DNA of 64,000 nt, taken from a virus. A program made the position numbers and the translations under genes. Each line of letters starts with the position of its first letter. The first letter of the stretch is position 1. Positions 35,052 through 52,124 of the stretch are shown one piece after another. Below the pieces are notes generated by a model. It saw only the letters and a list, made by a program, of their open reading frames with translations. It searched no databases and had not been told where the DNA came from. The DNA is taken from positions 1 through 64,000 of IMG/VR virus record IMGVR_UViG_3300035703_000079, one strand, 5' to 3'.

Positions 35052-35084
35052 ATTGAAAAAAGTCCCGGACAAACATTACTTTTG
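35052..35084 (+). promoter_or_regulatory. Bacteroidota-type promoter of the tail-gene unit
   Basis: ATTG (35052-35055), 21 bp, TACTTTTG (35077-35084), then the ATG of the next gene 5 nt later. Predicts a leaderless or near-leaderless start. Confidence 0.6.
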
Positions 35085-35089
35085 CCTAC

Positions 35090-35446: not shown

Positions 35447-35448
35447 CC

Positions 35449-35652: not shown

Positions 35653-35655
35653 GCC

Positions 35656-36333: not shown

Positions 36334-39300
36334 ATGGCAACCTACTTAGATACCCTCTCTGAATTTACCACCAAGGCCCATGTCCGGATGTCGGAATTGG
36401 GCCTTGAGGCGGCAATCATCATCAATAACCAAGGGATGCCATGGAGTCAAATTCAGGCAATCAATTGGTATAACATTTTGCTCACGGGAGCAAACAATAC
36501 GACACTCCCGGGGCTGACAGACGACATTCGTCTGGAGTTGCTTACGGTGTTGGTGGACAATGCCCGGCTGAATGAGATTCCGATTGTTTTCGGGGTGAAT
36601 GGTCTTGTCCAAACGATAAGTGGGACGGTGATTTCCGAAGTGGCATGGGGGAGTATAACGGGGAACATCAATTCTCAATCCGACCTGATTGCCAAGTTCA
36701 ACACCTATCTGCCGCTGGCGGGCGGCATTATGACGGGTGGCATTGACTTTAACGGGGACGGGCTTGGCATCGACGTATTCAACGAAGGCGACACCCTAAA
36801 CATCGGGGCTTCGGCGGGGGTAATCCAACTTGGTCCTGATGCAGAGGTTAAGCTCAACATTGTGACAGAGGGGGCGTGGCAAGCGACCCCTATTCAACCT
36901 GCCTACGGCGGCCTTGGGGCTTTGACTTTGACGGGTCAGGCCGGAAAGGCGATTGTGGTGAATGGCGGGGAGAATGGGTATGGGTTTGCGACGATTCCTG
37001 ACGGGTCGTTGTATGTATTGAAAGCCGGAAGCACCATGACGGGCAACCTGCTTTTTGATGCCAGCACCAAAATCGACGCTTCTTCCGGGATTCCGTTAGT
37101 GCTGGGAGGTACGGCCTCTCAAATTACGGTGAACTCCCTGCTGGTGACGGGCAACATCGACGCTGCCACCATCACCGGAACGTGGGGCGGTGATGTTATC
37201 CCGTTTAGCAAGGGCGGCCTGAATGCGCCCCTAAGCGCCCCGGCGGGAAACCGTCTGGTTGGCTATTACAATTCCGGGTCTGGATTTGTAACGCTCTCCA
37301 ACCTCGCCCTTAACAACTCTGGAGTTTTAAGCCTTGCCTCTACGCTTACGGGCGTGACTTGGGGCGGGTCCACAATTGGCGTTGGATTCGGGGGTACGGG
37401 TCTTAATTCATTGGGGAGTGCCTTACAATACCTACGGGTGAACGCCGGGGGTACAGCGCTCGAATACGCTACCCTGACGGCTCTTTCCAACCCCATGACT
37501 ACGCTGGGGGATATTATCTACGGGGCTGCTTCTGGAACGCCTACACGGCTTGCTGGAAACACTTCTACAACCCGGCGATTCTTACGGCAAACGGGCGACG
37601 GCACCAATTCCGCCGCCCCGGCATGGGATGTCCTTTCAGCAAGCGATATTCCAAACATTGCCATTTCGCAAGTAACCAACCTCACTTCCCAACTTTCCGG
37701 CAAACTCTCCACCACGCTTTCAAACACGTATATGTTTGTGGGCAACGGGGCTGGGGTTGCCGTGGGAGTAGCGATGTCTGGGGATGCCACGCTGGCAAAC
37801 ACGGGCGCTCTCACCATAGCCAATTCAGCCGTTACCTTTGCCAAATTCCAGAATATTTCGTCTGGCAACCTTTTGGGCCGTTATTCGGCTGGAAGCGGGG
37901 CGGTGCAGGAAATTACGTTGGGATCGGGCCTTACCCTTTCCGGGGCTGGAGTGCTTTCTGCTTCTGGCGGCGGCGGGGGTAGTCCCGGCGGGGCTTCTGG
38001 CGAAGTGCAATGGAATAACAGCGGGGCTTTTGATGGCCTATCCATTTTCACTTACGATGGGGCGGACCTGAATGCCACAGCCGACAATTTCTTTTTCATT
38101 GACGCCACCAACCCCACCTCAAGGGCTTGGTTTTTACTGAGCAACATTACGCCCGGCACAGACCGTAGGATTACCATTCAGGATTCCAACGGTACCATGG
38201 CCTATCTGGAAAACAAACTTGACGCCTTTGCCTCCACTACTTCGGCAGAACTGGCTTCGGTTATTTCCGATGAAACGGGGTCCGGGGCGTTGGTGTTTGC
38301 AACACAGCCTACGCTTCGCACCCCTCGAATTGGTTCTGGCGGCGGGAACGGGCACATTCATTTGCATTATGCTACAAGCGCCCCGTCCGGCATTGCAAGT
38401 TTTACCACCCACTACACGCAAGCAAACACGCTGGGCTGGATATTTGGCACCAATGCCTTTCAGTCGGTGTTTTCTTTTGCTGGCACCGCAACCCGCACTT
38501 ACACTTTCCCGGATGCAAGCGGGGAAGTTGTGCTGGGTTCGGCTACGCAAACCCTCTCTAATAAAACCCTAACAAGCCCGGTTATCAACGTGGGCAGCGA
38601 TGCCACCGGGGATGTGTACTATCGGGATTCTGGCGGGTTGTTTACCCGTTTGGGCATAGGTACCACGGGGCAGGTGCTCACTGTTTCTGCGGGCGGTATT
38701 CCTGAATGGGCTGCTGGTGGCGGAGGTGGAGGCGGCGTAACCACCGTAGGCACATTTTCTGCTTCGGCTCAGGCCAACGGGGCAAGTATTTCCGGGGTTA
38801 CGATTACCTTCGGGCCTGCGGACGCTTCTACGCCCGGCATGGTATCAACCGGCACACAAACATGGGCTGGGGCCAAAACGCTTACCTCGGCGCTGACGAT
38901 TACGCCGGGGACAAACCAAATTGTGTTGGGAACAACCCGGACGGCTACTATTACGGCCCCAATTCCAAGCACATCGTCCCGGACATGGACCATGCCGGAT
39001 GTTGCTGGCTATACGGGTAACTATACGTTTGCTGCTTTAGAGGGCGCCCAAACCTTCTCCGGGGCTAAAACCTTTTCCGGCGCCATCACTCTCACCCGTG
39101 CGGGGTCTGGGATTGATTCCGGGGCTCAGATTGTTTTTTCGGGGGCTACATCCAACTGGATAATGTTCGGGGCTACTGGTGCAGGGGCGCCTACTTTTTC
39201 TGGATCGGGGCGTTCCGCAGGGACTAAATTGGTGTTATTTAATGCCATAGGGGTTTCTTCTGCGGATTATGCCATTGGCTACGCCTCTACGGAATTGTGG

Positions 39301-39603
39301 ATTGGAACGGCTACGACATCCACCACCGTTGGGATTTATGCCGGAACTACTCGGGTTGCTCGGTTTGGTGGCAGCGCAAGCACGGCTATGACCATTACAG
39401 ATGGGTTTAACGTGGTGCTTGGCACGACTACCGGAACTCAATTTGGGACGGCCAGCACACAGCGGATTGGATTCTTGGGCGTAACCCCCGCCGTTGCTCA
39501 AACCGGGGCTGCCCAAACCGCTGGGGCCACTTATGGGGCCACAGAACAGGATATGCTTCAAAAGGCGTATAATGCGCTCAGAACTTTTGGATTTTTACAA
39601 TAA
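36334..39603 (+). CDS. tail fibre / receptor-binding protein
   Basis: 1089 aa. Gly/Ser/Thr-rich beta repeats through the whole length: GSTMTGNLLF, LVLGGTASQITVN, SAVTFAKFQNISSGNLLGRY, GAQTFSGAKTFSGA. Gly-runs near 547 and 793. The C-terminus (ATYGATEQDMLQKAYNALRTFGFLQ) has the form of a conserved fibre tip or assembly end. These features are those of trimeric phage fibres that recognise host glycans. Confidence 0.8.
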   Translation: MATYLDTLSEFTTKAHVRMSELGLEAAIIINNQGMPWSQIQAINWYNILLTGANNTTLPGLTDDIRLELLTVLVDNARLNEIPIVFGVNGLVQTISGTVISEVAWGSITGNINSQSDLIAKFNTYLPLAGGIMTGGIDFNGDGLGIDVFNEGDTLNIGASAGVIQLGPDAEVKLNIVTEGAWQATPIQPAYGGLGALTLTGQAGKAIVVNGGENGYGFATIPDGSLYVLKAGSTMTGNLLFDASTKIDASSGIPLVLGGTASQITVNSLLVTGNIDAATITGTWGGDVIPFSKGGLNAPLSAPAGNRLVGYYNSGSGFVTLSNLALNNSGVLSLASTLTGVTWGGSTIGVGFGGTGLNSLGSALQYLRVNAGGTALEYATLTALSNPMTTLGDIIYGAASGTPTRLAGNTSTTRRFLRQTGDGTNSAAPAWDVLSASDIPNIAISQVTNLTSQLSGKLSTTLSNTYMFVGNGAGVAVGVAMSGDATLANTGALTIANSAVTFAKFQNISSGNLLGRYSAGSGAVQEITLGSGLTLSGAGVLSASGGGGGSPGGASGEVQWNNSGAFDGLSIFTYDGADLNATADNFFFIDATNPTSRAWFLLSNITPGTDRRITIQDSNGTMAYLENKLDAFASTTSAELASVISDETGSGALVFATQPTLRTPRIGSGGGNGHIHLHYATSAPSGIASFTTHYTQANTLGWIFGTNAFQSVFSFAGTATRTYTFPDASGEVVLGSATQTLSNKTLTSPVINVGSDATGDVYYRDSGGLFTRLGIGTTGQVLTVSAGGIPEWAAGGGGGGGVTTVGTFSASAQANGASISGVTITFGPADASTPGMVSTGTQTWAGAKTLTSALTITPGTNQIVLGTTRTATITAPIPSTSSRTWTMPDVAGYTGNYTFAALEGAQTFSGAKTFSGAITLTRAGSGIDSGAQIVFSGATSNWIMFGATGAGAPTFSGSGRSAGTKLVLFNAIGVSSADYAIGYASTELWIGTATTSTTVGIYAGTTRVARFGGSASTAMTITDGFNVVLGTTTGTQFGTASTQRIGFLGVTPAVAQTGAAQTAGATYGATEQDMLQKAYNALRTFGFLQ

Positions 39604-39956
39604 TGGAAAACGAAAACATTCTCTCCGTCTATTCACATCCCGACTACCCATCGCTGGCAAGGCAGGTGGACCTAACGGAAGTAGGGTTTACTTATGACCC
39701 CAAGAATAAGATTGTGGTGCTGGAGGTCCCGGTGCAAACATTAGACCCGGACGGGAACACAATCAAAGAGATGTCAAAGCCTTATTTCCTCAATGCCACC
39801 AACGAAACGAAGGTGAATCAATTAGGGCAGCCGGACCCGCAGGGGGAGATTGGGGAATTTGACTTTTTTCAAGCACTGGCGAAAAGCCCCGTTGTTATAT
39901 TTGACCTTTTGAAAGGCAAGGTGCAATGGGCCGATGCCACAAACAGACTTCATTAA
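39603..39956 (+). CDS. hypothetical protein following the fibre
   Basis: 117 aa, overlapping the fibre stop by one base (TAATG). YDPKNKIVVLEVPVQTLDPDG strands and a C-terminal helical end. Small genes in this place often encode fibre chaperones or tail accessory proteins, but no family is recognised. Confidence 0.55.
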   Translation: MENENILSVYSHPDYPSLARQVDLTEVGFTYDPKNKIVVLEVPVQTLDPDGNTIKEMSKPYFLNATNETKVNQLGQPDPQGEIGEFDFFQALAKSPVVIFDLLKGKVQWADATNRLH

Positions 39957-39959
39957 ATC

Positions 39960-40301
39960 ATGGAAATACAACCATACGAGGCGGCAAAGGCCGCATTTGC
40001 GCTCAGGGAGTTGAGCTTGCAGAAAATGAGTTTCAAGGCCGCCTATGCGGTGAAGCGCAACCTCGACTTTTTGGGCGGATATGCCGAAAAGTATGAGGCA
40101 GACCTCAAAGCTAAAGAGGTGAAGACCCCGGCGGAGTTTGTTGCCGCCGATGCCGAAATCAAGGCCAAATGGCTGGAACTGCCCAAAGAGAACGTCCAGA
40201 CTTACGCCATTGACTTCTCCACCGAAGGGCCGGACTTCCAGATTGCCCCGGACATTTTAAGCCGTATCTCTTTTTTGTTGAAAGATGAAACACCAGCCTG
40301 A
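39960..40301 (+). CDS. hypothetical protein, 113 aa
   Basis: Helical and charged (YEAAKAAFALRELSLQKMSF, EFVAADAEIKAKWLELPKENV). It overlaps the next gene by 17 nt. No family recognised. Confidence 0.55.
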   Translation: MEIQPYEAAKAAFALRELSLQKMSFKAAYAVKRNLDFLGGYAEKYEADLKAKEVKTPAEFVAADAEIKAKWLELPKENVQTYAIDFSTEGPDFQIAPDILSRISFLLKDETPA

Positions 40302-40755
40302 AGCCTTCGACGTGCGCCTGATGCGGGTGCCTCGGGAGCGATTCGTTAAAAAGACCAAAGCCTACATTTTCGGCCTTTTCCCGGAAACCAGATGGGAGCG
40401 GGAAGTGGAAATCCGGGATGAAGCCTGGATTGCCCTTAAAATCTCCCTCACCGACCGGGATACGCCCACCCTCTATTGGGCCGGGATGACCGAAAAGGGA
40501 TTTGCCATCATGCTCGATGGCCCGCAGCTTGCCGGTGAAATTACCTCAAAGGGGTGGGATGTCCTTGATACTTTCCGCATCGACGGCTTTGCCAGCCTCG
40601 ACAAAATCAAGCGGGTAATTGGGAGAACCCGGCTGGAGGGAGTGGACCTCACCGACGCCCGGGCCATTGCCTACATTTTCAGCCTTCCGGATTGGGAGAA
40701 AGCCACGGTGAAGAGTTTAACCCTGAGTGCCAAGAAGGACGATGAGGTTTATTGA
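40285..40755 (+). CDS. hypothetical protein, 156 aa
   Basis: Mixed alpha/beta (VEIRDEAWIALKISLTDRDTP, KRVIGRTRLEGVDLTDARAIAY). It overlaps the holin candidate by 14 nt. No family recognised. Confidence 0.55.
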   Translation: MKHQPEAFDVRLMRVPRERFVKKTKAYIFGLFPETRWEREVEIRDEAWIALKISLTDRDTPTLYWAGMTEKGFAIMLDGPQLAGEITSKGWDVLDTFRIDGFASLDKIKRVIGRTRLEGVDLTDARAIAYIFSLPDWEKATVKSLTLSAKKDDEVY

Positions 40756-41005
40756 CATCTACCGATACGCAACCGATTGGAGTTGCGAGCACAAAAGGGC
40801 GTTCTGGGGAGCGCTCCTTCTAATGGATGGTCCATTGCTTACAATTGACTTCAGCATTCTCTATGTTTGGTTTTGGGCCCCGGAGGCCCTCACCTACTTT
40901 GGGCAAGGGCTGGGAATTGTGGCTTCCGGGTCAGGCATCTACCTGACTTGGCTTAGAATTAAGCAGGTGCGGCGTGATTTAAACAAGAAGAAAGATGATG
41001 GTTGA
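40742..41005 (+). CDS. holin candidate
   Basis: 87 aa from ATG 40742 (MRFIDIYRYATDW). Two hydrophobic segments (about 22-48, ALLLMDGPLLTIDFSILYVWFW, and 52-72) and a strongly basic tail (KQVRRDLNKKKDDG) match class II holins. It lies 0.9 kb before the spanin and endolysin genes, and a terminator follows. Function is inferred from topology and context. Confidence 0.6.
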   Translation: MRFIDIYRYATDWSCEHKRAFWGALLLMDGPLLTIDFSILYVWFWAPEALTYFGQGLGIVASGSGIYLTWLRIKQVRRDLNKKKDDG

Positions 41006-41077
41006 TAGTTCTGATTATCGCCATCATTCACCTTATGCTTAGGGTGTATCTTTGGTGGCTTCGGAAACAAAAAAAAG

Positions 41078-41102
41078 GCCCGGGATAACTCTCCGGGCTT
41101 TT
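41078..41102 (+). terminator. terminator after the holin candidate
   Basis: GCCCGG (41078-41083) pairs with CCGGGC (41093-41098), followed by TTTT. The A-run on the left would give a U-tract for - strand transcripts too. Confidence 0.75.
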
Positions 41103-41132
41103 CGCATTTTAATACACCAAGATTAACCAAAT

Positions 41133-41534
41133 TTACAAGTCTTTCAATCTCTCAATTACATCCTTTGTCGTATGCCCGTCGAAGGGCGGGGCTTTGTCCA
41201 ATATGTCATTGTGTGGAAAATCATCCCACATCTCAATCGGGAGATGAAAGGAGATTTGCCTGCCTGATTCTTGATTTATCCCAGCAAGGAAATATCCCTC
41301 AAGCTCAACCCCATTCGGGTGGCGTTTTGAGCGCCATAGAAAGTCATTGCCGGAAAAAATATACTCACCATACGCCGCACTAATCGCCGCACTAATCGCC
41401 GCACACAGCGCCACAAACAAAGCGTTCCTCGTTTCATACAACTCCTCGAAGGAATGAAAGCCATCGGATAGTTGCGCCCGGTCCTCGGAGGGTAGGGCGT
41501 CGATAAAGCGTTGGACGGTGGATGTTGGTTCCAT
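41133..41534 (-). CDS. conserved phage protein (WDGHT-type C-terminus)
   Basis: 133 aa from ATG 41534. GVELEGYFLAGINQESGRQISFHLPIEMWDDF followed by LDKAPPFDGHTTKDVIERL is a signature I recall from small proteins shared by many phages and mobile elements of unknown role. An in-frame 12-bp tandem repeat gives AAISAAISAAY in the middle. The frame is open far upstream, but that part crosses the tRNA-like gene. Confidence 0.65.
   Translation of the reverse strand: MEPTSTVQRFIDALPSEDRAQLSDGFHSFEELYETRNALFVALCAAISAAISAAYGEYIFSGNDFLWRSKRHPNGVELEGYFLAGINQESGRQISFHLPIEMWDDFPHNDILDKAPPFDGHTTKDVIERLKDL
41373..41404. repeat. tandem 12-bp repeat
   Basis: CGCCGCACTAAT occurs twice in a row and then partly again (8 of 12 bases), inside the coding region on the - strand. 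Confidence 0.85.
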
Positions 41535-41647
41535 ATTGTGTTTTGTTTGAAATTCCCGGCTATTACGGATTCCCGAAGGAAGCGTGAGTTTCGCAATTCG
41601 ATGCCCCGCCCATTTGCGCATTGTTAAGAGGCGTGGCGGGGGACTTG

Positions 41648-41720
41648 TGGACGGGAAGGGACTCGAACCCTTAGCTTTCGGAATCGTGCCGAATATGTTA
41701 CCAATTACACCACATATCCA
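41648..41720 (-). tRNA. tRNA-like gene with abnormal anticodon loop
   Basis: On the - strand: D-arm GTGT-AATTGGTA-ACAT, anticodon stem TTCGG/CCGAA, 4-nt variable loop, T-arm AAGGG-TTCGAGT-CCCTT, 7-bp acceptor (GGATATG/CCCGTCC) with two mismatches. The anticodon loop reads CACGATT, so position 33 is A instead of the nearly invariant U; positions 34-36 would be CGA. No CCA is encoded. It resembles the Gln/Glu tRNA group in the D-arm. Either a decayed tRNA or a tRNA-like decoy. Confidence 0.6.
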
Positions 41721-41822
41721 TTTTTTAAGAACACTTTGCCTTTCAGCGATGCCCCGACGTTGTACTTTCCTCCATTCGTCGGGGTGGTACCCCTCTTTCG
41801 AGATCAATGCAAAAGTACCCCC

Positions 41823-41853
41823 CTTGCCCCATCTCAACAAACTATTATCTTTG
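41823..41853 (+). promoter_or_regulatory. Bacteroidota-type promoter of the lysis genes
   Basis: CTTG (41823-41826), exactly 19 bp, TATCTTTG (41846-41853). The spanin-like gene begins 18 nt downstream. Confidence 0.75.
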
Positions 41854-41871
41854 ACCCAAACGAAACACCCC

Positions 41872-42153
41872 ATGAAATACCTCATTTTCTCGATAATCGT
41901 TTTAACCGGGTGCCACGAAGCCCGCATCAAACAACTAGAAAAACAAGATTCCCTCAAAACCGAACGACAATTCCTGCTTGAAGCCTATGTCGGGGCGCAG
42001 TCCGAACGAATCGACTCCCTCGAATCCGCCATTTACGCACAAGGACAAGGGCTTGTCTATCTGGATTCTATCGTTCAAGAACGCAAGTTCAAGCGGGACC
42101 GCTGGGGCAAAGCCGGGGCGTTTATCGGGGGTGTTATTAAGGCGGTGAAATGA
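41872..42153 (+). CDS. spanin-like lipoprotein
   Basis: 93 aa from ATG 41872; the frame is open further upstream but there it crosses the tRNA-like gene and promoter. MKYLIFSIIVLTGC is a lipoprotein signal with LTGC lipobox; a coiled coil follows (about 20-70) and a short hydrophobic GAFIGGVIKAV end that could act as a second membrane anchor, as in unimolecular spanins. It overlaps the endolysin start by 4 nt. Outer-membrane disruption in the final lysis step is the likely role. Confidence 0.7.
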   Translation: MKYLIFSIIVLTGCHEARIKQLEKQDSLKTERQFLLEAYVGAQSERIDSLESAIYAQGQGLVYLDSIVQERKFKRDRWGKAGAFIGGVIKAVK

Positions 42154-42602
42154 GCTTCTTCAAAATAACCGAGCTTGTCCCGCAGGCCACCTATCAGGAG
42201 TTCGGGGAGGATTCCATCCAATTCCTGCACCCCGACCTTATTCCGTCCCTAAACGCCCTGCGGGAGAAACTCGGGTATGGCCTGATTGCAAACAATTGGG
42301 ATTCCGGTGGTACATTCAACTTCCGGGGGTATCGCCCGGATTGGTACAAGGGCGGTGCGCCACGTTCCCTGCATCGCAAGGGGATGGCCATTGACTTCCA
42401 CGGGGCCGGGGTGCCCATGAAACAGCTATGTATTGACATCTGGCAACTCCGGGATTGGATACCGGAAAACACGGCGTTCCACCGGATTGAATCCTTTGAG
42501 GTTACGGCTCGGAAAAACAGGCGTGGGGAGATTGTTTCGGGTTGGTGTCACCTAGACATGGGAGGCCCTAAGCCGAAGGAATTGGTGGTGTTTATGCCAT
42601 AA
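42150..42602 (+). CDS. endolysin, M15-type peptidase
   Basis: 150 aa. The zinc-site pattern of M15 D-Ala-D-Ala/L-Ala-D-Glu peptidases is visible: SLHRKGMAIDFHG (about 72-84; His and Asp ligands) and WCHLDMG near 137. No signal peptide, so export needs a holin. It is coupled to the spanin-like gene (ATGA) and ends just before a hairpin. Confidence 0.85.
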   Translation: MSFFKITELVPQATYQEFGEDSIQFLHPDLIPSLNALREKLGYGLIANNWDSGGTFNFRGYRPDWYKGGAPRSLHRKGMAIDFHGAGVPMKQLCIDIWQLRDWIPENTAFHRIESFEVTARKNRRGEIVSGWCHLDMGGPKPKELVVFMP

Positions 42603-42627
42603 AAAAGCCCCGGATATTACTCGGGGC
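42601..42627 (-). terminator. terminator for - strand transcripts
   Basis: GCCCCG (42607-42612) pairs with CGGGGC (42622-42627); on the - strand it is followed by TTTTTT. It closes the small gene and the cassette array read from the right. Confidence 0.75.
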
Positions 42628-42733
42628 CCTTCCAAATCCTCTTAGCGACTCGCCAAGCGGCGCGGGGTCCAATTCTTGCTCCGTGGAAGTCCCGGAAGAC
42701 AATCCGGACAAAGAGCCAAAGGGCGTTTAACAT
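42617..42733 (-). CDS. small basic protein, 38 aa
   Basis: ATG 42733 to TAA 42617-42619: MLNALWLFVRIVFRDFHG, then RAAWRVAKRIWKGPE. Amphipathic and basic; composition and GC match the phage, not the cassette array. Its first codons coincide with a GTTAAAC box that would be the right end of the array, so the array may have inserted immediately in front of it. Confidence 0.55.
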   Translation of the reverse strand: MLNALWLFVRIVFRDFHGARIGPRAAWRVAKRIWKGPE

Positions 42734-42800
42734 AGGTTTTATGGTTTAGGCCCCACCGTTTTGGCAGGGCTGGAGTTGCGTTTAGCGAATTGTTATAAGC
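42725..42800 (-). repeat. attC-like site 5 (right end of array)
   Basis: R-double-prime GCTTATAAC (42800-42792), a CCCTGCC/GGTGGGG hairpin in the middle, and a perfect GTTRRRY box GTTAAAC (42731-42725) at the start of the 38-aa phage gene. 76 bp. Confidence 0.55.
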
Positions 42801-43095
42801 AATTGCTAAGAACCTGCTTCCAATTGAGTTTTTCGCCACAATAAGGGCAGTAAACAAATCTACTTAAATAACCTTTTCTGCCATCTACTATTTGACTTTT
42901 AGTTTGTGGTTCTCCATTCAATAAACCATACTTTTTAAAAGTCGGCTGAATATTTACAATCTTTTCTACTTCAAAATCAATAGTAGATTTGTTTACTTTT
43001 TCTCCACTAAGAAATCCTACCAAGCAATCGCAACTGCTTATAACAGCAGTCTTGCGTAATGCGGGGTTCTGTGGTTTATCAATCTTTTGTCCCAT
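42793..43095 (-). CDS. cassette ORF 4: zinc-ribbon protein
   Basis: 100 aa from ATG 43095 (MGQKIDKPQNPALRKTAV). The C-terminus holds a CPYC motif (FVYCPYCGEKLNW); a CDC pair lies near 24. The start codon and about the first 18 residues lie inside the preceding attC-like site, so the protein is a hybrid of attC leader and cassette body. Function unknown. Confidence 0.6.
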   Translation of the reverse strand: MGQKIDKPQNPALRKTAVISSCDCLVGFLSGEKVNKSTIDFEVEKIVNIQPTFKKYGLLNGEPQTKSQIVDGRKGYLSRFVYCPYCGEKLNWKQVLSNCL

Positions 43096-43170
43096 AATTG
43101 AATATTTGTGCTTTAACAAAGTGTAGTGCATTTTAAGCCCGCACTAACGCAAGGCTGCGAAACGTTACAG
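43038..43170 (-). repeat. attC-like site 4
   Basis: R-double-prime CTGTAAC (43170-43164), left arm GCAGCCTTGCGTTAGTGCGG, long loop, right arm CCCCGCATTACGCAAGACTGC, and R-prime GTTATAA (43044-43038). The two arms pair over about 20 bp with few mismatches. 133 bp, inside the known attC range. Confidence 0.7.
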
Positions 43171-43177
43171 GCAAGTG

Positions 43178-43894
43178 TTACCGACCTGCTACGATTTGAA
43201 AGTATCTATCTTTTAATGCTCTTAAATAAATATCATTGGGAATACCGTAGTTGCCTATTGCCCACATATCATTAAATTCTACAACGACATTCTCATTGCT
43301 TTCTAAAACAGCAATATCAACCGTGTAAGCACAAGGAAATTTGCCTTTATTATTAGCGATAACCGTCAAAGCATATTCATAATTTGGAGAAACTATAAAC
43401 TCACCAGAGTAATTTCTTGCATCAATAAGTTTGTCCTTATGCACATATAAACGCCATTCACTAACAATCTTACTATTGAATACATCATAAGCCATTACTT
43501 TAGTTTCAGGTGGTAAATTGGATAAGCAAGAGTATTGCATACCATCAAGAATTAAACCTGTAAACAGTTTTATCTCAATTGGCTTAACAAATAACTTACT
43601 GCCATTTGCAACTCTTTTATGAGCATCTTCAAGTGTAATTATCTCACAATCTCTATTTGAGTTTATAGGTAATCTTACGTCATCTAATCCAATTCTCTTG
43701 AAAACCTCTCTCATAAATTCAGTTGAACCTACAAATAAGCTTTTCTTGATAAGCATATCAAACTTACCACTTGCAACTTCTTCAAAAGATGTTAAACGAT
43801 AATCCATAGCGTTATCAATTGCACCATATAATGCACAAGAGCAATCAAAATGATGTGCTAATGTTCTTTCTGTATTTGACTGTATATAAATCAT
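43178..43894 (-). CDS. cassette ORF 3: ATP-grasp protein (R2K/DUF4343-like)
   Basis: 238 aa from ATG 43894; an in-frame GTG at 43915 is less likely. KLFVKPIEIKLFTGLIL (about 92-108), SEWRLYVHKDKLIDARNYSGEF, AYTVDIAVLESN and VVVEFNDMWAIGNYG match the ATP-grasp core of the R2K clade. Such enzymes ligate amino groups and turn up in phage-host conflict loci. AT-rich, unlike phage genes. First residues (MIYIQSNTERTLAHHF) may be a substrate-binding part. Confidence 0.7.
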   Translation of the reverse strand: MIYIQSNTERTLAHHFDCSCALYGAIDNAMDYRLTSFEEVASGKFDMLIKKSLFVGSTEFMREVFKRIGLDDVRLPINSNRDCEIITLEDAHKRVANGSKLFVKPIEIKLFTGLILDGMQYSCLSNLPPETKVMAYDVFNSKIVSEWRLYVHKDKLIDARNYSGEFIVSPNYEYALTVIANNKGKFPCAYTVDIAVLESNENVVVEFNDMWAIGNYGIPNDIYLRALKDRYFQIVAGR

Positions 43895-43919
43895 AATTTG
43901 TTTATTAACCCACACCTGC

Positions 43920-44052
43920 CTGTAACATCGGTTTGCCGCAAGGCGGGGTTCATTTCTTCGTTTGACATTGTGTTGTTATTTAAAAGTTAGTAATTCTAAT
44001 CAAGTTCTGTGGTTAAATACCCGCCCTGACGGCAAGCCGAGAACCGTTATGG
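43920..44052 (-). repeat. attC-like site 3
   Basis: R-double-prime CCATAAC (44052-44046), left arm TCGGCTTGCCGTCAGGGCGGG, right arm CCCCGCCTTGCGGCAAACCGA, R-prime GTTACAG (43926-43920). 133 bp. Its right arm is nearly the same as that of site 4. Confidence 0.7.
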
Positions 44053-44057
44053 GCAAT

Positions 44058-44306
44058 TTAAAACCGACAATCAAAAAGATGGTCAATTATGTCTAACATT
44101 TCATCAAATGTTTTTGAAATTTGTAAAACTTCATCACAATCATTTGTATTATAAGCACACCATTTATTTTCCTGTTTCCTGCTATAATCATAATCAAACT
44201 CTTTTATTTCATATCCTCGATAAATAAATAAACGATTTGCTAACAGCGGTTTTGTGCTATTGCCGTTTTGGTTAATAATTTGAACGTTGTTTTTTTCTTC
44301 AATCAT
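44058..44306 (-). CDS. cassette ORF 2: hypothetical, 82 aa
   Basis: MIEEKNNVQIINQNGNSTKP opens inside attC-like site 2; the cassette body begins at about residue 22 (ANRLFIYRGYEIKEFDYDYSRK). Acidic C-terminus (KTFDEMLDIIDHLFD). No family recognised. AT-rich. Confidence 0.6.
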   Translation of the reverse strand: MIEEKNNVQIINQNGNSTKPLLANRLFIYRGYEIKEFDYDYSRKQENKWCAYNTNDCDEVLQISKTFDEMLDIIDHLFDCRF

Positions 44307-44372
44307 TTGTCTTAAATTTAAAAGTTAGTGTGTGTTTTTTCGGCAACATCACAAAGCCACATAACGTTATGC
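44238..44372 (-). repeat. attC-like site 2
   Basis: R-double-prime GCATAAC (44372-44366), left arm TATGTGGCTTTGTGATGTTGCCG, right arm CGGCAATAGCACAAAACCGC inside cassette ORF 2, R-prime GTTAGCA (44244-44238). 135 bp. Confidence 0.65.
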
Positions 44373-44378
44373 ACAAAG

Positions 44379-44669
44379 CTAATAAAGCGTTTCCATATCA
44401 GACGAAAAGTCTCTAACATAATCATTTATATAATCAAAATTGACCATATCTCTAAAAGGATTTTCGCTATCAAATTCTATTTTAGCACCCACCAATTGAA
44501 GTTGCTGAACATGAATTACGTGCATTAACAATCTGATTGCTTCGTGTTTATCCATTTTGTCAAGCAACCTTATTGTTTGGTGCATTTCTTCACAGTAGTG
44601 GATATTGTCAGCTTGAACTCCCATGTGGTTCAACCCAATTATTTGCTTGCATAATTCTTTTAATTCCAT
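44379..44669 (-). CDS. cassette ORF 1: hypothetical, 96 aa
   Basis: All-helical protein (MELKELCKQIIGLNHMGVQ, LLDKMDKHEAIRLLMHVIHV) with a charged end. It starts 12 nt after the putative R-prime box of attC-like site 1. No family recognised. AT-rich. Confidence 0.6.
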   Translation of the reverse strand: MELKELCKQIIGLNHMGVQADNIHYCEEMHQTIRLLDKMDKHEAIRLLMHVIHVQQLQLVGAKIEFDSENPFRDMVNFDYINDYVRDFSSDMETLY

Positions 44670-44680
44670 TTCGTTTTCAA

Positions 44681-44727
44681 ATTAAACTTAGTGCTGATAG
44701 TCCGCCCAGCACTTTTAGGCGTTAATC
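44681..44727 (-). repeat. attC-like site 1 (left end of array, compact)
   Basis: GATTAAC (44727-44721), hairpin AGTGCTG - 10 nt - CAGCACT, and GTTTAAT (44687-44681). The GATTAAC box overlaps the stop codon of the phage gene at 44722. Less regular than sites 2-4. Confidence 0.5.
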
Positions 44728-44985
44728 AATCAGTCTCTCAAAATTTGCATTTACCCAATCCCACGCTTTATTCAGGTCAGCATCCGTAACCTTATAGCCA
44801 TCGGGACCGGATACTTCAAGCGAAATAATCTGGCATTCACGCTCCATTACTCCAGCATCAAAGCCTTGTTCCCCATGGTACTCATAGGACCCAATGCCTG
44901 ACATTCCGGTTTCAATCACCTCAATTTCGCCGGAAACTTCGAGGTTTAGTTCGGGGATGTAGTAGGATTCGAATTCGTGGCTCAT
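44722..44985 (-). CDS. hypothetical phage protein, 87 aa
   Basis: Acidic, with YYIPELNLEVSGEIEVIETG at the start and DADLNKAWDWVNANFERLID at the end. ATGA-coupled to the gene upstream. Phage-like composition; the cassette array begins at its stop codon. Confidence 0.65.
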   Translation of the reverse strand: MSHEFESYYIPELNLEVSGEIEVIETGMSGIGSYEYHGEQGFDAGVMERECQIISLEVSGPDGYKVTDADLNKAWDWVNANFERLID

Positions 44986-45146
44986 ACATTCTCTTCGCTT
45001 ATCTCCTTACACAATTCAATCAAGGCCCGGGCGAACTCCTGCTCACGCTCGGACAGCGATTCGATGCCTTTGTCCCTTAGTGCCGTCTGGCAGTCCTGAA
45101 GGTCCACAAAGGTGTTCTCGAATCGGGTGTAGGTCATGTTGCTCAT
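44982..45146 (-). CDS. hypothetical protein, 54 aa
   Basis: From ATG 45146 (MSNMTYTRFENTF); ATG 45137 is also possible. One long helix (SEREQEFARALIELCKEISEE). A GACTTTTG -7-like box ends 5 nt before ATG 45146, and the divergent holin gene has its own promoter in the same gap. Confidence 0.6.
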   Translation of the reverse strand: MSNMTYTRFENTFVDLQDCQTALRDKGIESLSEREQEFARALIELCKEISEENV

Positions 45147-45199
45147 GGGTACAAAAGTCTGGTTTTGGGGCGCCCCTATAAACTTTCTTCGACAAGTGT

Positions 45200-45207
45200 T
45201 ACCTTTG
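45200..45207 (+). promoter_or_regulatory. -7 box TACCTTTG of the second holin candidate
   Basis: TACCTTTG 5 nt before the ATG at 45213; no clear TTTG at -33. Leaderless arrangement as elsewhere in this genome. Confidence 0.55.
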
Positions 45208-45212
45208 GGTCG

Positions 45213-45449
45213 ATGAACGCCCGGTCCACATACACGAAACGAATGCAGGTGGTAGCCTACATCGCCGCCACAATCTCTCTCTGGGGCGTTATCCCTGGTT
45301 TGGGAGTGGCAAGTAAGCACTTAGGGCTTGATATTCCTGACGGGGTTGTAATGATGCTTGTAGGCGGGTTATTAACCCAATGGCAGCGACTCACCGATAA
45401 GATATTCCGGATATTCACCGCCGGGGAGCAACAAAAAAACCCGGAGTAA
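45213..45449 (+). CDS. second holin candidate
   Basis: 78 aa from ATG 45213. Two hydrophobic segments (VVAYIAATISLWGVIPGLGV and GVVMMLVGGLLTQW) separated by a short turn, with a charged tail, as in two-span holins. It converges on the - strand operon that ends at 45485. With the 40742 gene the region has two holin-type genes, perhaps holin and antiholin. Confidence 0.6.
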   Translation: MNARSTYTKRMQVVAYIAATISLWGVIPGLGVASKHLGLDIPDGVVMMLVGGLLTQWQRLTDKIFRIFTAGEQQKNPE

Positions 45450-45459
45450 GCACCCCGGG
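45433..45459 (-). terminator. terminator of the long - strand operon
   Basis: CCCGG (45440-45444) with CCGGG (45455-45459), followed on the - strand by TTTTTTT (45439-45433). It overlaps the 3' end of the convergent holin gene. Confidence 0.65.
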
Positions 45460-45484
45460 CCTTTCGTGTTTGTTCAATCGTTGT

Positions 45485-45772
45485 TTATTTCTGCTTTCTC
45501 TCCTCATAAAATCCCCTCAGCAACTCCCCATACCCCTTCAAGTCCTGAATGGTATCGGCGATCCCTTCGTGGTTGGGGGTGTGCCCCGCCTGACTTTTCC
45601 TGACCAGACTAATCAGGCGCAACACCTTCTTTACCACTTCCTGCACAATGGCCTTCTCCGGGCCTTCAATCCCTTCCGTCAGCCGGGCCGCCTCCTCGAA
45701 TATCCAGAATTTCCCCTGCCCGAAGCAATAGTCGGAGGATTTGGAGGCCAATAATTTATCAAGCTGTTCCAT
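45485..45772 (-). CDS. MazG-like / DUF1599-type protein
   Basis: 95 aa from ATG 45772. SSDYCFGQGKFWIFEEAARL, VVKKVLRLISLVR and a closing ADTIQDLKGYGELL follow the helical pattern of DUF1599/DUF6378 all-alpha NTP-pyrophosphohydrolase relatives (acidic residues after KxxRL and DTxxDLxxY). It may cleanse the nucleotide pool. Overlaps the upstream gene by 14 nt. Confidence 0.55.
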   Translation of the reverse strand: MEQLDKLLASKSSDYCFGQGKFWIFEEAARLTEGIEGPEKAIVQEVVKKVLRLISLVRKSQAGHTPNHEGIADTIQDLKGYGELLRGFYEERKQK

Positions 45773-46103
45773 ACTTCTCGTTGAATTTTTTTGCCATTTC
45801 GTTATACATCTCCTGAAACGCCTTGGACCGTTCCTCATCTTGGTCCAATAGGTTCTCCACGATATTGAACAGGATTGTGTTCATATCGTCCTCCAGATGG
45901 GCCTTATCGCCCAACAAGCGGTCCATCGTTTTTTCCAGCTTTCGACAAGCGTTTATCGCAGCATTGGTATCTCTCCGAACCTCATGGACAAGCTGCTTGG
46001 TTGTGTCCCGCTGGATTACGTCCCCCAGAATCGAGGCGCTCTTGACGTGGAAATAAAGATGGCTGTAAAGGGCCACTTGGGCCGGGGTCATTCTCACTAT
46101 CAT
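45759..46103 (-). CDS. hypothetical helical protein, 114 aa
   Basis: Coiled-coil-like throughout (RRDTNAAINACRKLEKTMDRLLGDK). ATGA-coupled to the LytTR gene. No family recognised; start may be M5 (MTPAQ). Confidence 0.6.
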   Translation of the reverse strand: MIVRMTPAQVALYSHLYFHVKSASILGDVIQRDTTKQLVHEVRRDTNAAINACRKLEKTMDRLLGDKAHLEDDMNTILFNIVENLLDQDEERSKAFQEMYNEMAKKFNEKYGTA

Positions 46104-46426
46104 TGGTCAATCAATTGTTTCACTTTTTTCTTGTACTCACCGTACCCAATCCGGGCACGAAACTTTGAATCTCTCATGTAAATCATCCGGCTTATCACGT
46201 CAATCCGGTCAATGTGCTGAATGTTTACAGCATACTCGTTATGCACCCGGAGAATTACCTCCGGGCACTTGCTCATAAAAACGCCCATGGGGCCCGCAAA
46301 CGAAAAAGAGTCTATGGCCCGGGTGGTGAACACCTCCACCGTATCTCCATGGCTCACAGCCATAATGATTTCTTCCGGCAATACGTTGTAAAAAACCGGA
46401 TGGGGTTGGAGGACTTTCAGGAACAT
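46100..46426 (-). CDS. LytTR-domain DNA-binding protein
   Basis: 108 aa from ATG 46426. HGDTVEVFTTRAIDSFSF, then VHNEYAVNIQHIDRIDVIS and MIYMRDSKFRARIGYGEYKKKVKQL follow the LytTR beta layout (R.H.S..VN...I..I pattern). No receiver domain. LytTR proteins bind paired direct repeats near promoters, so this is a candidate regulator of phage transcription. Confidence 0.6.
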   Translation of the reverse strand: MFLKVLQPHPVFYNVLPEEIIMAVSHGDTVEVFTTRAIDSFSFAGPMGVFMSKCPEVILRVHNEYAVNIQHIDRIDVISRMIYMRDSKFRARIGYGEYKKKVKQLIDQ

Positions 46427-46533
46427 AGCTCTCTCAATACAACAACAAAACACAACCCCGCCGGGACCGTTTCCCCGGTGACAAGGCAGGCGAGGCCGCA
46501 TAGGACGATGAGCCAGAGGAGGAGGGGTTTCAT
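46417..46533 (-). CDS. small hydrophobic protein, 38 aa
   Basis: MKPLLLWLIVLCGLACLVTG then VPAGLCFVVVLREL: one to two membrane spans. It overlaps the LytTR start by 10 nt and lies just after the dUTPase gene, in operon orientation. Could be a signal-peptide-like or small membrane protein. Confidence 0.45.
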   Translation of the reverse strand: MKPLLLWLIVLCGLACLVTGETVPAGLCFVVVLRELCS

Positions 46534-46546
46534 GTCACAAAAGTCT

Positions 46547-47230
46547 TTATCCCTTGTCGTTTGTAGAAATCCCCTCGACAATCGGCCCGGTTTGCTCGTT
46601 GGTTGAACCGAAACCCCCGATGCGTTCGTTGGTTAAAACCGGGATGCAGGCAGGTCTTTCAACCTTTGAGAATACCCCCTGAGCAATTCGTTCTCCCCGT
46701 TTGCATCGGAATGTATCTTCGCCCAAATTGATTAGCAGAACCTTGACCTCCAAAGCAAAATCTGCATCCACAGTCCCCGGGCTATTCAGCACGGTGATTC
46801 CATGCTTAAAAGCATTCCCGGACCTTGGTCGGATTTGCAGTTCTGTATCGGCTGGCATATTGTGAACGAAGATGCCCGTAGAAACCAGCATACGCTTCAT
46901 TGGGCGCAATTCAATGTCCTGGTTACAGGCAATATCAAACCCCGCACTTCCGCTTGTCTGGTAGGCTGGAATGAGGTCTGAGGGGTGCGTGAGGTGGAAG
47001 GGGTTTGGATCGAAAATATCAAACTCCGGGACGTCCAACCCTTCGGCTGCAATCTCTTTATTGCCAAAACAGTCAATATAATCCGGGTATTCCATTGGTT
47101 CTTCTTTGGTCGGCAATTCCCCGCTTGACCACCAAGTATACCCATCCGCTTCCAGCATGGGGGCAATCTTGTTCCATTCTTCGTTGTTTTCCACCCGAAC
47201 GGAAAAGGGTGGTTTTGGAAGTGTTTTCAT
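46547..47230 (-). CDS. dut: dUTPase with N-terminal extension
   Basis: 227 aa from ATG 47230. After about 80 unrecognised residues the trimeric dUTPase motifs occur in order: SGSAGFDI (motif 1), RPRSGNAFKHGI (2), NSPGTVDADF (3, catalytic Asp), RIAQGVFSKVE (4) and GGFGSTN (5, glycine-rich). It makes dUMP from dUTP, limiting uracil in phage DNA and feeding dTTP synthesis. Confidence 0.9.
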   Translation of the reverse strand: MKTLPKPPFSVRVENNEEWNKIAPMLEADGYTWWSSGELPTKEEPMEYPDYIDCFGNKEIAAEGLDVPEFDIFDPNPFHLTHPSDLIPAYQTSGSAGFDIACNQDIELRPMKRMLVSTGIFVHNMPADTELQIRPRSGNAFKHGITVLNSPGTVDADFALEVKVLLINLGEDTFRCKRGERIAQGVFSKVERPACIPVLTNERIGGFGSTNEQTGPIVEGISTNDKG

Positions 47231-47235
47231 TTTGT

Positions 47236-48513
47236 TTACTGAATTAAAACCTCTCTCCATCTGTTGTTAGCCTGATCATTCCCCTCTACCACCACCGAAC
47301 GAACTCTTCGGAAAATCCGAACAGTTGTATCAGGTTTGCTGGTTGTTGCTGAGAAAACCACAACCCCATCGGCCAGAACTCTAACCGGCTGAATTGGACT
47401 GCCCCATCGGTTATTTGAAAAGAACCCGGAAACAACCCTGACCGAATTAACCCGCACCGAATCGGAATAGGCAATGGTAACGGTACTCCTTCCGGTCGTT
47501 ACCCATCTGGTGTCGGTGTTCCCGTCGTTTACGTTGGATGTGGTTCCCGAATGAGTCGTGCCTGAAAATGTCCAGGTTGTTGTAATGGGCGTTGGTGGGG
47601 GTGTATTGCCGGGCGTGAAGGTCGGTAGGGTGGAGTAGAATAGGGACTGATTCAGAACCGCTACAATAGCCGGGTGAATCTTCCAGGACTGGGAGTTCCA
47701 AAAATGGCCATAACCCATAATATCCGCTTCGTGCCGCCTGGAAGTAGTGCGGCATAGTGGGGAAGGGGTACAAGTGCGTTCTCCGGCCCAGGTTGAATCA
47801 AGTCTTCCCAATTGTCTTCCGTTCTTATCCAGCCAAACACAACAGTTGAAAGCATGGCTCAGGCCCAAATTATGCCCGATTTCATGCACAATGTTGTATT
47901 CCAGCTTGCCGGGTGTAGTGGTGTTCCCCATCGGAACAAATCCCATACCAAGTACCGCCCATTTTGCACTGGTTACTGAACCTCTCGACAAATAAGCCGA
48001 CCCGCCAATGTTTTTGCCGGAAAGTCGCAATTTGAAAATGGTAGGGTCAAGGGTTGGATATTCGGTTGTCCATGCGTACAGCATGGGTGTTGCGGCTGTG
48101 GCTCGATAGGTTTGATCGGATCGGGTCCTGATTAGGATAGAAACAATCTCCATGCGAATGCCATATCTTGGCTCACATACCCGGTTTATCAAGGCAATAC
48201 GGCTACGAATGGCCTGTTCGGCACTATCCTTATACAATGCCCGGAAAAGCGTATCAGCTTCAATGTAGAGCCTGATTACCCGGTTAGGTCGGTAGTTTGG
48301 GTCCCAGAAGTCGGGAATGCTTGCCAGTCGCATGGCAATACGTGGTTCGGCTGTGGTATCAATTTCACAGGTAGGGTTGATTTTGACCGAATCTGTGAAA
48401 GTTTGTTGGACGGTTCGTTCGGGGGTTGGTTGGCAGCCGATAAGCAAAAAAGCCAAGCCGAAACAAGCTACCCATAACAGGGAAAAGCCAATGAATTTTA
48501 CAAGATTTTTCAT
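47236..48513 (-). CDS. secreted zinc metallopeptidase lipoprotein with discoidin-like domain
   Basis: 425 aa. Lipoprotein signal ending in LLIGC (about residues 9-27); catalytic HEIGHNLGLSH near 214 (HExxHxxGxxH metzincin site) with a Met-turn ADIMGYG near 265; C-terminal beta domain from about 315 (DGNTDTRWVTTG, NRWREVLIQ) typical of F5/8C (discoidin) binding modules. It would act outside the host cell or in the periplasm, a rare function for an early-region phage gene. Confidence 0.8.
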   Translation of the reverse strand: MKNLVKFIGFSLLWVACFGLAFLLIGCQPTPERTVQQTFTDSVKINPTCEIDTTAEPRIAMRLASIPDFWDPNYRPNRVIRLYIEADTLFRALYKDSAEQAIRSRIALINRVCEPRYGIRMEIVSILIRTRSDQTYRATAATPMLYAWTTEYPTLDPTIFKLRLSGKNIGGSAYLSRGSVTSAKWAVLGMGFVPMGNTTTPGKLEYNIVHEIGHNLGLSHAFNCCVWLDKNGRQLGRLDSTWAGERTCTPSPLCRTTSRRHEADIMGYGHFWNSQSWKIHPAIVAVLNQSLFYSTLPTFTPGNTPPPTPITTTWTFSGTTHSGTTSNVNDGNTDTRWVTTGRSTVTIAYSDSVRVNSVRVVSGFFSNNRWGSPIQPVRVLADGVVVFSATTSKPDTTVRIFRRVRSVVVEGNDQANNRWREVLIQ

Positions 48514-48523
48514 GCGTGTGTGT

Positions 48524-48766
48524 TTAATTATTGTTTTTGTGTTTGACCTTTTTCCTGACGTCAGGAATTTGGTTGGTGACTTTTACCAAATCTTTCATCG
48601 CTGCCATGTACTGCCGCACCCAATATTCCCGAATCCGGATTTCGCCCTTGATGATTTCATTGATGATGCGAATCTTTTCCTTGAAAGGCTTTTCCGGGTC
48701 TGACAAAGCTACTTTCAACAATGGCTCGTAAGCCTTGATTTGTTTTTTGATTTCTTTTTGTGTCAT
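48524..48766 (-). CDS. hypothetical protein, 80 aa
   Basis: Basic helical protein (PEKPFKEKIRIINEIIKGEIRIREYWVRQYMAAMKDL). It contains the palindrome TTCCTGACGTCAGGAA near its 3' end. No family recognised. Confidence 0.6.
   Translation of the reverse strand: MTQKEIKKQIKAYEPLLKVALSDPEKPFKEKIRIINEIIKGEIRIREYWVRQYMAAMKDLVKVTNQIPDVRKKVKHKNNN
48552..48567. promoter_or_regulatory. 16-bp perfect palindrome
   Basis: TTCCTGACGTCAGGAA. A second copy differing at one central base lies at 48782-48797, 230 bp away; together they bracket the 80-aa gene. Confidence 0.5.
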
Positions 48767-48781
48767 GGTTTTTAGATCAGT

Positions 48782-48797
48782 TTCCTGATGTCAGGAA
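48782..48797. promoter_or_regulatory. second copy of the TTCCTGA-TCAGGAA palindrome
   Basis: TTCCTGATGTCAGGAA, overlapping the stop region of the 48791 gene, just upstream of the 48766 start on the - strand, where an operator would be expected. Confidence 0.5.
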
Positions 48798-49129
48798 GGT
48801 GATGTTTGCCCTTGCTCAGGATCGGCGGGTTTGTGAATAATGCTTTCAACTGCCGGGCGAATAAAATCAACAAATTCGCTACGATTGGCAAGAATTTTTT
48901 GCCAGTCCAAAAGTCGGTTAATCAACCCGGCCAAACTTTCTTCCGTAAGCAAAAAACGAATATCAGCAATCGGGCCCGGTTCAGTAATTAGTTCCTCGTT
49001 TTCAATTTTGTACGCCTTCCCGTCTCGGTAGGCAATGACAAGCTCGATAAACGGCATTAAACTGTTTTGGCCAGTTGGGTCAAGGTCGGCAAACCGGAAA
49101 TTTGCCCGTACGTCGGTTAGTGTTTTCAT
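48791..49129 (-). CDS. hypothetical protein, 112 aa
   Basis: Acidic; LMPFIELVIAYRDGKAYKIENEELI and LAGLINRLLDWQKILANRSEF. ATGA-coupled to the 59-aa gene upstream. No family recognised. Confidence 0.6.
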   Translation of the reverse strand: MKTLTDVRANFRFADLDPTGQNSLMPFIELVIAYRDGKAYKIENEELITEPGPIADIRFLLTEESLAGLINRLLDWQKILANRSEFVDFIRPAVESIIHKPADPEQGQTSPS

Positions 49130-49305
49130 TCTTCTTTCAGGATAAGTGCAAAAGTTTCTTGGTCTTCCCGGCCCTCTAAATAAACGGGGTCAATGGTAAC
49201 GCTATTTACAAGCCCGTAGCGTTCTTCGGTAAGTCGTCTATCCATATACACCTCCATTTCGTTCGGAAGGTCTTGGATGGCTCTTTTGAGGTCTTGGATG
49301 GTCAT
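49126..49305 (-). CDS. hypothetical protein, 59 aa
   Basis: ATG 49305 to TGA 49126-49128, with ATGA overlaps at both ends. MTIQDLKRAIQDLPNEMEVY, then VTIDPVYLEGREDQETFALIL. Good codon use and the double coupling make it real; function unknown. Confidence 0.7.
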   Translation of the reverse strand: MTIQDLKRAIQDLPNEMEVYMDRRLTEERYGLVNSVTIDPVYLEGREDQETFALILKEE

Positions 49306-49730
49306 AGCGGGTCAGCGGTAAATTCGAGTTCGGTTCCGTATATCCCAAATACAGTGTTTTGAAGCACATGAACATGGCTCGGTTTCACAATGAAAGCGTC
49401 GCCCTTGACACCCATTGAAAACCCTTCTACCTCTGGGTGTTCCCATACCTGAACCAACATAAAATTTACATGCTTCCAAAACATTCCAAGTTTCACAAAC
49501 CCCGCCCTTCTCAGCCACGTCTCGTCGAGTGGGATGGGTTCCAATTCATCCAGACAAACCCAGAATGAATCCGGGGGGTTGATTTCAACAATCCATTTGT
49601 CCTTAAATCGGTCAGGCGTTGGTTCTGGCTGTCGGATGCTTACAACCTTGTTGTACGCCCCGTTGTAAAGGATTCCAGACCCAATTCGTAATTCGTTTGC
49701 GTTCATTTCGTTTTGTTCGGATGGGTTCAT
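49302..49730 (-). CDS. conserved phage protein (NELRIG-type)
   Basis: 142 aa from ATG 49730. NANELRIGSGILYNGAYNKV, a central PIPLDETWLRRAGFVK and a C-terminal HVLQNTVFGIYGTEL are the landmarks of a small protein common in Bacteroidota phages and mobile elements; role unknown. ATGA-coupled on both sides. Confidence 0.7.
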   Translation of the reverse strand: MNPSEQNEMNANELRIGSGILYNGAYNKVVSIRQPEPTPDRFKDKWIVEINPPDSFWVCLDELEPIPLDETWLRRAGFVKLGMFWKHVNFMLVQVWEHPEVEGFSMGVKGDAFIVKPSHVHVLQNTVFGIYGTELEFTADPL

Positions 49731-49966
49731 GGCTTTATCCATCTGACCTTGTAGTGTTCACACATCATTTCAAAATGAGCCTTGCTGCTGTTTTCGTGAA
49801 AGGACACGGGATTTTTTGAGTCAATCCAATAGCCTTCTTTTTTGAAAATCAATGCTGGCGAATCGTGGTTTTCTTTGTATTCACAAATTCCAGCAATCGC
49901 CGTCTCATCCTGAATCAAATCAAACAGTTCGGCGTAATCGGTGGAAAGGGTGTAGGGGGTTTTCAT
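49727..49966 (-). CDS. hypothetical protein, 79 aa
   Basis: Mixed composition with ELFDLIQDETAIAGICEYKE and a C-terminal FEMMCEHYKVRWIKP. ATGA overlap with both neighbours. No family recognised. Confidence 0.6.
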   Translation of the reverse strand: MKTPYTLSTDYAELFDLIQDETAIAGICEYKENHDSPALIFKKEGYWIDSKNPVSFHENSSKAHFEMMCEHYKVRWIKP

Positions 49967-50241
49967 TTTAGCTCTGGGAATAATCTGTTTACAATCATAA
50001 CATAGGCATAGAACGAGTCTTTACGGACCATCATTTCGTAAAACACATATCCCACTCCGTTAATAACCCTTTTGAAGTCATATTTTGCAGTTGCCGGATA
50101 TGCTCGAATTTGGCGAATCAATACGGCTTCATCTGCATTTACTCCTTTCATAACGCCAACAATATGCAATGCCCGACCTGTCTTTTCTCCGGTCTCAAGA
50201 TTGATTATGTCGTTTTTAAAACTTTGATAAAATACTTTCAT
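49963..50241 (-). CDS. hypothetical protein, 92 aa
   Basis: Start at ATG 50241 (MKVFYQSFKNDII). RALHIVGVMKGVNADEAVLI and YDFKRVINGVGYVFYEMM. ATGA-coupled upstream. No family recognised. Confidence 0.6.
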   Translation of the reverse strand: MKVFYQSFKNDIINLETGEKTGRALHIVGVMKGVNADEAVLIRQIRAYPATAKYDFKRVINGVGYVFYEMMVRKDSFYAYVMIVNRLFPELK

Positions 50242-50510: not shown

Positions 50511-50540
50511 GGCTTAATCGTAGTTAAATACGGGGTCCTA

Positions 50541-51231: not shown

Positions 51232-51233
51232 TA

Positions 51234-52115: not shown

Positions 52116-52124
52116 AAACAGTTC

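Follow-up and report, generated by a model that had tools for sequence, protein, structure and literature searches.

An AT-rich block of small genes directly behind the endolysin gene of a phage raises the question of whether genes are captured there in the manner of an integron and, if so, by which enzyme. The block belongs to a virus record of 68,010 bp, of which 64 kb (hereafter the window) were analysed. An initial annotation had described it as an integron-type array of five attC-like sites and four ORFs in a phage. Integrons are usually treated as IntI-based systems, rare in Bacteroidota. A complete integron was reported by IntegronFinder 2.0 in only one Bacteroidetes genome, that of Salinibacter ruber (PMC9024848), and clusters of cassettes lacking an integrase (CALINs) in phages, and their recombination by IntI1, are already known (PMC9892861). 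Our results make it highly probable that the region from 42793 to ca. 44720 is a phage-borne, recombinase-less cassette cluster of an integron-like system, residing in a Bacteroidota phage and most likely served in trans by a XerA-like enzyme.

Results and discussion

The phage and the position of the array

Annotated genes of the window include those for a terminase large subunit (phrog_6681), an endolysin, a dUTPase and a primase. The closest relatives of the terminase belong to phages of Flavobacterium, Cellulophaga, Tenacibaculum and Maribacter, so that a Bacteroidota host is likely for this phage. The left neighbour of the array, an endolysin of M15-type peptidase (42150..42602, plus strand), matched phrog_894 (E 3e-11) and, below the cutoff, Pfam M15_3 (E 0.0017). 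The coding strand switches directly after this gene, and the AT-rich block that follows, between the endolysin and the early genes, carries four small ORFs that all lie on the minus strand, as initially annotated. No tyrosine recombinase was found in the whole 68,010-bp record.

Other features of this genome were also observed. An RNA of the abiF family (Rfam RF03085, E 4e-9) was matched at 41604-41640 on the minus strand, adjoining a tRNA-Ser(CGA) at 41647-41719; the family name suggests a tie to abortive-infection genes, here inside a phage. Both RNAs are overlapped on the same strand by a 274-aa ORF with a WDGH domain (41133-41957; PF25311, E 1e-23), the start of which may have been placed too far upstream. 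An unusual cargo gene at 47236-48513 (minus strand) encodes a secreted-looking metallopeptidase of the Reprolysin family (E 7e-7).

Three hairpin sites belong to one family

A structural scan of the window for AAC...GTT boxes with pairing arms gave scores of at least 40 at two places only, 43042-43164 and 43924-44046, and no such score in 15 trials with Markov-resampled 64-kb sequence. A third annotated site scored 30.5, a value that chance reaches about six times per 64 kb on the scan alone. A covariance model, R1, was then available for all three, built from an alignment of 46 sites of other viral contigs with no window site included. It matched attC-a (43036..43172; 91.1 bits, E 1.4e-19), with the R'' box GCTTATAAC and the R' box GTTACAGGC and the corresponding fold, attC-b (43918..44054; 86.9 bits, E 1.5e-18) and attC-c (44236..44374; 83.8 bits, E 8.3e-18), which are the sites of cassettes 1, 2 and 3, respectively. 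The three matches are on the plus strand; when the filters were switched off for 35000-55000, scores on the reverse strand were just 12.5 bits at attC-a and 19.8 bits at attC-b. Nothing comparable was found by R1 over the rest of the window, and no Rfam family matched the sites.

Five sites had been annotated, and three of them stand. At the first (42725-42792) there was neither an R1 match nor a matching fold, and the last (44690-44727) consists of a 7-bp hairpin with a partial R1 match at E 0.6-1.9. The AAC and GTT boxes are present in all three remaining sites, at a spacing of ca. 122 bp. Among the sites of the family the outer stem is paired in 90% of cases, with two-sided changes at nearly every pair, and the covariation score was 0.45 versus 0.16 for shuffled sequences, the sites having been preselected for complementarity. 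The bottom strand of each window site folds alike, into an R box, a 4-nt bulge and an L stem. Folding z-scores were strong, and the free energy clearly better than for shuffles, at only one of the three sites.

Close relatives of attC-c (81-85% DNA identity) are located beside other genes in the Flavobacterium phages 11b, snusmum6-1 and filifjonk9-1, and in isolated phages of Flavobacterium the number of R1 sites reaches ca. 15. In Polaribacter phage P12002L, which carries a published CALIN, R1 found no match with default filters, filters that can miss true sites. A methyltransferase block of that phage (L019:28000-33000) lies right behind the endolysin, in the part of the genome where the window has its array. 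A genome-contig search with the protein of cassette 2 led to a cyanobacterium without R1 sites, and R1 had no match in 19 cyanobacterial genomes, a set that serves purely as a specificity control.

The units between the sites are mobile

Cassette 1 (42793..43164) includes attC-a and runs from one G/TT to the next (the stroke marks the cut). Its left cut point, G/TTATAAGC, lies after 42792 (42792..42800, plus strand), and homology with the viral contigs L015 and L017 begins at 42791-42792; to the left of it there is no attC or attI of this site family. The unit recurs in L015 (92% identity), L017 (95%) and L016 (81%), with different flanks on both sides, and the homology begins and stops at G/TT. 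Cassette 2 (43165..44046) recurs with 93-94% identity in L002/L014 and L003/L026, from the cut at GTTACAGGC. Cassette 3 (44047..44366) is bounded by attC-b and attC-c. A probable cassette 4 (44367..44720) begins at G/TTATGCAC; its right end is uncertain and its own site is degenerate, with a partial R1 match at 44655-44701 (E 0.6-1.9). The starts of cassettes 1 and 2 are the complement of the R'' box at their own ends (GTTATAAGC and GCTTATAAC; GTTACAGGC and GCCTGTAAC), as had been noticed from the start. Considering all loci, right-hand homology ended at the cut in both partners in 21 of 43 comparisons, versus a chance expectation of 0.009 per end. The window units are therefore mobile cassettes bounded at G/TT with R''/R' complementarity, and a cassette cluster without an integrase inside a phage, as first proposed, is supported.

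The four genes are all on the minus strand. That of cassette 1 (42793..43131, 112 aa) has a weak zinc-ribbon match and its start codon within attC-a; that of cassette 2 (43178..43915, 245 aa, or 238 aa from an alternative ATG at 43894) encodes an R2K-clade ATP-grasp protein (PF18299, E 3e-23; PF14243, E 3e-15; phrog_7313). ORF and domain searches assigned no function to the genes of cassette 3 (44058..44306, 82 aa, start codon within attC-c) and cassette 4 (44379..44669, 96 aa). The minus strand of attC-b encodes a short leader ORF of 25 codons (MSNEEMNPALRQTDVTGRCGLINKL); the stop of the leader and the ATG of the R2K gene overlap as ATGA, which suggests translational coupling of the two. An orientation of the gene antisense to its site was counted in 84 of 94 cassettes overall and in 83 of 90 from viral loci; the mobile unit takes in the site located upstream of the gene start.

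Such an arrangement could mean that the hairpins serve as signals for transcription or translation, with genes swapped between them by homologous recombination: the sites overlap gene starts, 33 antisense ORFs begin inside a site, and a few sites are common to different gene neighbourhoods. We consider this very improbable, since the flanks of cassette 1 are unrelated beyond G/TT on both sides and both of its ends are R-box cuts. In addition, a related gene of Riemerella anatipestifer, also a member of the Bacteroidota, integrates together with an attC-like 3' segment. This gene, aph(3')-IVb, is captured by natural transformation with a 140-bp segment and no flanking homology, through an enzyme that is unknown in that paper (PMC13148043, 2026).

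Variation at the recombination points, named at first as a test of the array, was found, with one cassette in different neighbourhoods and a related phage that bears a different array after its lysis genes. This phage, G016, was the one relative retrieved with the terminase as bait; its eight sites lie directly behind its own lysis genes and, like the window, it has no recombinase. Searches for related phages with an unoccupied site, for which the endolysin (42150-42602) and the right neighbour of the array (44722-44985) served as bait, gave no usable matches, and no empty site was seen with the terminase either, G016 having a different array there.

A XerA-like recombinase adjoins related arrays

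Recombinase genes were found in two contigs with shared sequences, G002, with portal and terminase genes, and G009, with a phage-type polymerase and a helicase. With these recombinases as one alignment query, 16 viral loci were retrieved, and an array is located beside the recombinase in L036-L044, L047 and L050/L051, most of these links being in metagenome contigs. The order is recombinase gene, an attI-like sequence ACATATA(N)TA/GTTR (present in most) and then the array. R1 with default filters missed the arrays of L039 and L050, which were recovered in other runs; no array was detected beside the recombinase in L045/L046 and L048, and L049 had one weak match. The first cassette opens with a sequence exactly complementary to its R'' box in L036, L038, L039, L043, L044, L047 and L050 (GTTAGGCGA and TCGCCTAAC in the latter).

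These proteins of 265-287 aa retain the catalytic residues R132, K157, H221, R224, H247 and Y256. An insertion in the catalytic domain is the defining feature of IntI. Matches of IntI HMMs in the viral contigs had suggested that the recombinases were IntI proteins, an assignment that was rejected because the insertion, of about 40 residues, is missing in the alignment. Their scores are below the TIGR02249 cutoff, and in the tree the IntI proteins stand apart in a clade of their own, with support of 98/95. The best family match is XerA (NCBIfam NF040815), with 195 bits versus a curated cut-off of 220. XerA was likewise the top match of the predicted fold (PDB 5hxy, 4a8e; pLDDT 82), with the integron integrase IntI4 as a close second; an earlier prediction from two sequences (pLDDT 60) was set aside. 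In family and fold the array enzyme comes closest to XerA-like recombinases, whose domain plan it shares; it differs from them in falling below the curated cut-off and in being tied to cassette arrays, not to chromosome dimer resolution.

The XerA-like recombinase and the attI-like site beside an array, absent from the window record, are present in L036-L044, L047, L050 and the plasmid L052, and for this reason we regard the window array as a recombinase-less cluster of the proposed system. Activity must come from outside in a phage without a recombinase. General XerC/XerD of the host, or some other recombinase it encodes, could provide this activity, in which case the adjoining XerA-like gene would be a passenger; Xer-type modules with resistance genes are known elsewhere (PMC7399989). 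This appears unlikely to us, because in most of the loci found by the recombinase alone the array starts at the 5' side of this gene with a conserved attI-like sequence, and because two plasmids, described below, split exactly at that site.

Site architecture differs from that of IntI-type attC sites

In 45 of the 46 sites that were aligned, the spacer has 1 nt on the R'' side versus 4-6 nt on the R' side, and these sites also bear the extra base on the R'-L' arm, as do the window sites. In VCR the two spacers are of equal length and the extra bases lie on the R''-L'' arm, which is the opposite arrangement. Shifting the extrahelical bases of VCR to the other arm moves recombination to R'' (PMC2727003). 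Since exchange in the present arrays remains at R' despite the extra bases on the R' arm, the polarity rule seems to be reversed relative to VCR, and this would fit a different enzyme.

In class 1 and Vibrio arrays R1 found nothing convincing (best E 0.85, filters off), nor did it in a Shewanella array. These data bear on whether the cluster could be an ordinary CALIN, in which a classical host IntI mobilizes genuine attC sites. The logic of the R boxes and the geometry are the same (recombinase, attI, G/TT cassettes), and phage CALINs with sites recombined by IntI1 exist. This explanation is nevertheless rather unlikely, given the unconvincing R1 results, the reversed asymmetry of spacers and extra bases, and linked recombinases without the IntI insertion. 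The arrays have in common with integrons and with CALINs, those of phages among them (Qi et al. 2023, PMC9892861), one-gene cassettes, a hairpin site with R'' and R', exchange at G/TTRRRY, a side-by-side recombinase, attI and array, and integrase-less clusters in phages, whereas the phage genes are here almost all antisense. The system is, then, integron-like in its working, yet not an IntI integron by the two criteria tested, enzyme and site architecture; neither the canonical attC sites nor the classical integrase that the first description implied could be upheld.

Sites of this family and a XerA-like recombinase on Bacteroidota plasmids with resistance genes

Plasmids L052 and L053 (Flagellimonas marinaquae and Arenibacter algicola) share 99.99% identity along 7,902 bp, up to and including the recombinase, and part company immediately behind the G/TT of attI, with erm(F) on one and another gene on the other. 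An attI differently filled on otherwise identical replicons is thus observed for this plasmid pair, not for the window. The erm(F) unit, which is 97% identical between L052 and a Myroides plasmid (L059), begins and ends at G/TT. On plasmids of Myroides, Sphingobacterium and Bacteroides (loci L059, L060, L070 and L071), the resistance genes OXA-347, erm(F), tet(X2), aadS and ere(D) lie between R1-family sites, and one such site is found in 13 plasmids, including some of Riemerella, Salmonella and Acinetobacter. Orientation is mixed in the plasmid cassettes, with tet(X2) sense and erm(F) antisense.

Other plasmid recombinases were also noted. A Chryseobacterium plasmid encodes a 347-aa XerA-like protein with an N-terminal extension (L054:6758-7801, plus strand), with sites at its 3' side, a geometry opposite to that of the phage arrays. 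On the Aeromonas plasmid p158496, a truncated XerA-like recombinase (L055:5133-5744, plus strand; 41.8% identity to the array recombinase) directly precedes blaVEB-3; R1 detected no site near it, and similar recombinase matches were found in Klebsiella plasmids. That the recombinases tied to the Chryseobacterium genes and to blaVEB sit on the other side of the genes counts against our preferred explanation, as do the absence of a recombinase from the window and from G016, the metagenomic origin of most links between recombinase and array, the loci L045/L046, L048 and L049, and the folding z-scores.

Cargo and its possible use

N6/N4 DNA methylases account for 7 of 76 cassette proteins, most of the 76 being without a Pfam match, and the order of units varies among phages. 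Defence functions had been considered as cargo of the window array, but none of its cassette genes matched a defence family. The Muminvirus phages of Baltic Flavobacterium, which are isolated phages, bear at least eight of these sites and methyltransferase cassettes; their methyltransferase content correlates with plating efficiency, lower efficiency accompanying the lack of a methyltransferase, and the authors' text mentions neither integron nor cassette (PMC7077304). We propose that phages swap modification and accessory genes through these cassettes. Because the cargo of the sister arrays is rich in DNA methyltransferases, its use is likely to be the evasion of host restriction.

Conclusions

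In the mechanism that we envisage, each cassette consists of one gene and one hairpin site, and units are exchanged at G/TT, apparently via the bottom strand folded in single-stranded form, a route known from integrons. The enzyme would most likely be a XerA-like tyrosine recombinase whose source is the host, a plasmid or another phage infecting the same cell; its supply in trans is proposed because the phage has no recombinase, while related viral contigs and Bacteroidota plasmids have one, beside an attI-like site and arrays. In phages the cassette gene nearly always points back to the recombinase, the site provides the 5' region and often the start codon, and the cargo turns over rapidly. 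The sites, the precise boundaries of exchange, the linkage to a recombinase and the orientation of the genes are observed, whereas the action of this recombinase on the sites, the use of the bottom strand, the supply in trans and the function of the cargo are inferred.

No description of a XerA-linked cassette system was found in the literature searched, subscription journals and preprints being outside the search, so that the system appears to be undescribed and its novelty is provisional. A broader proposal, which we hold to be about as likely as not, is that integron-like capture arose a second time, or split early, with a XerA-like enzyme without the IntI insertion and folded single-stranded sites of reversed polarity, and that it constitutes the main cassette exchange of Bacteroidota, their plasmids and phages, accounting also for the spread of erm(F), tet(X), ere(D), aadS and OXA-347. 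If this is true, Bacteroidota and their phages would own a cassette system with a different enzyme. Such a system would explain the varying order in which erm(F), tet(X2), ere(D), aadS and OXA-347 neighbour one another on plasmids, and would suggest an enzyme for the gene capture without homology in Riemerella, so far unexplained. A further question would be how a folded single strand is handled by an integrase that lacks the insertion specific to IntI, and phages would be vehicles by which modification genes are traded.
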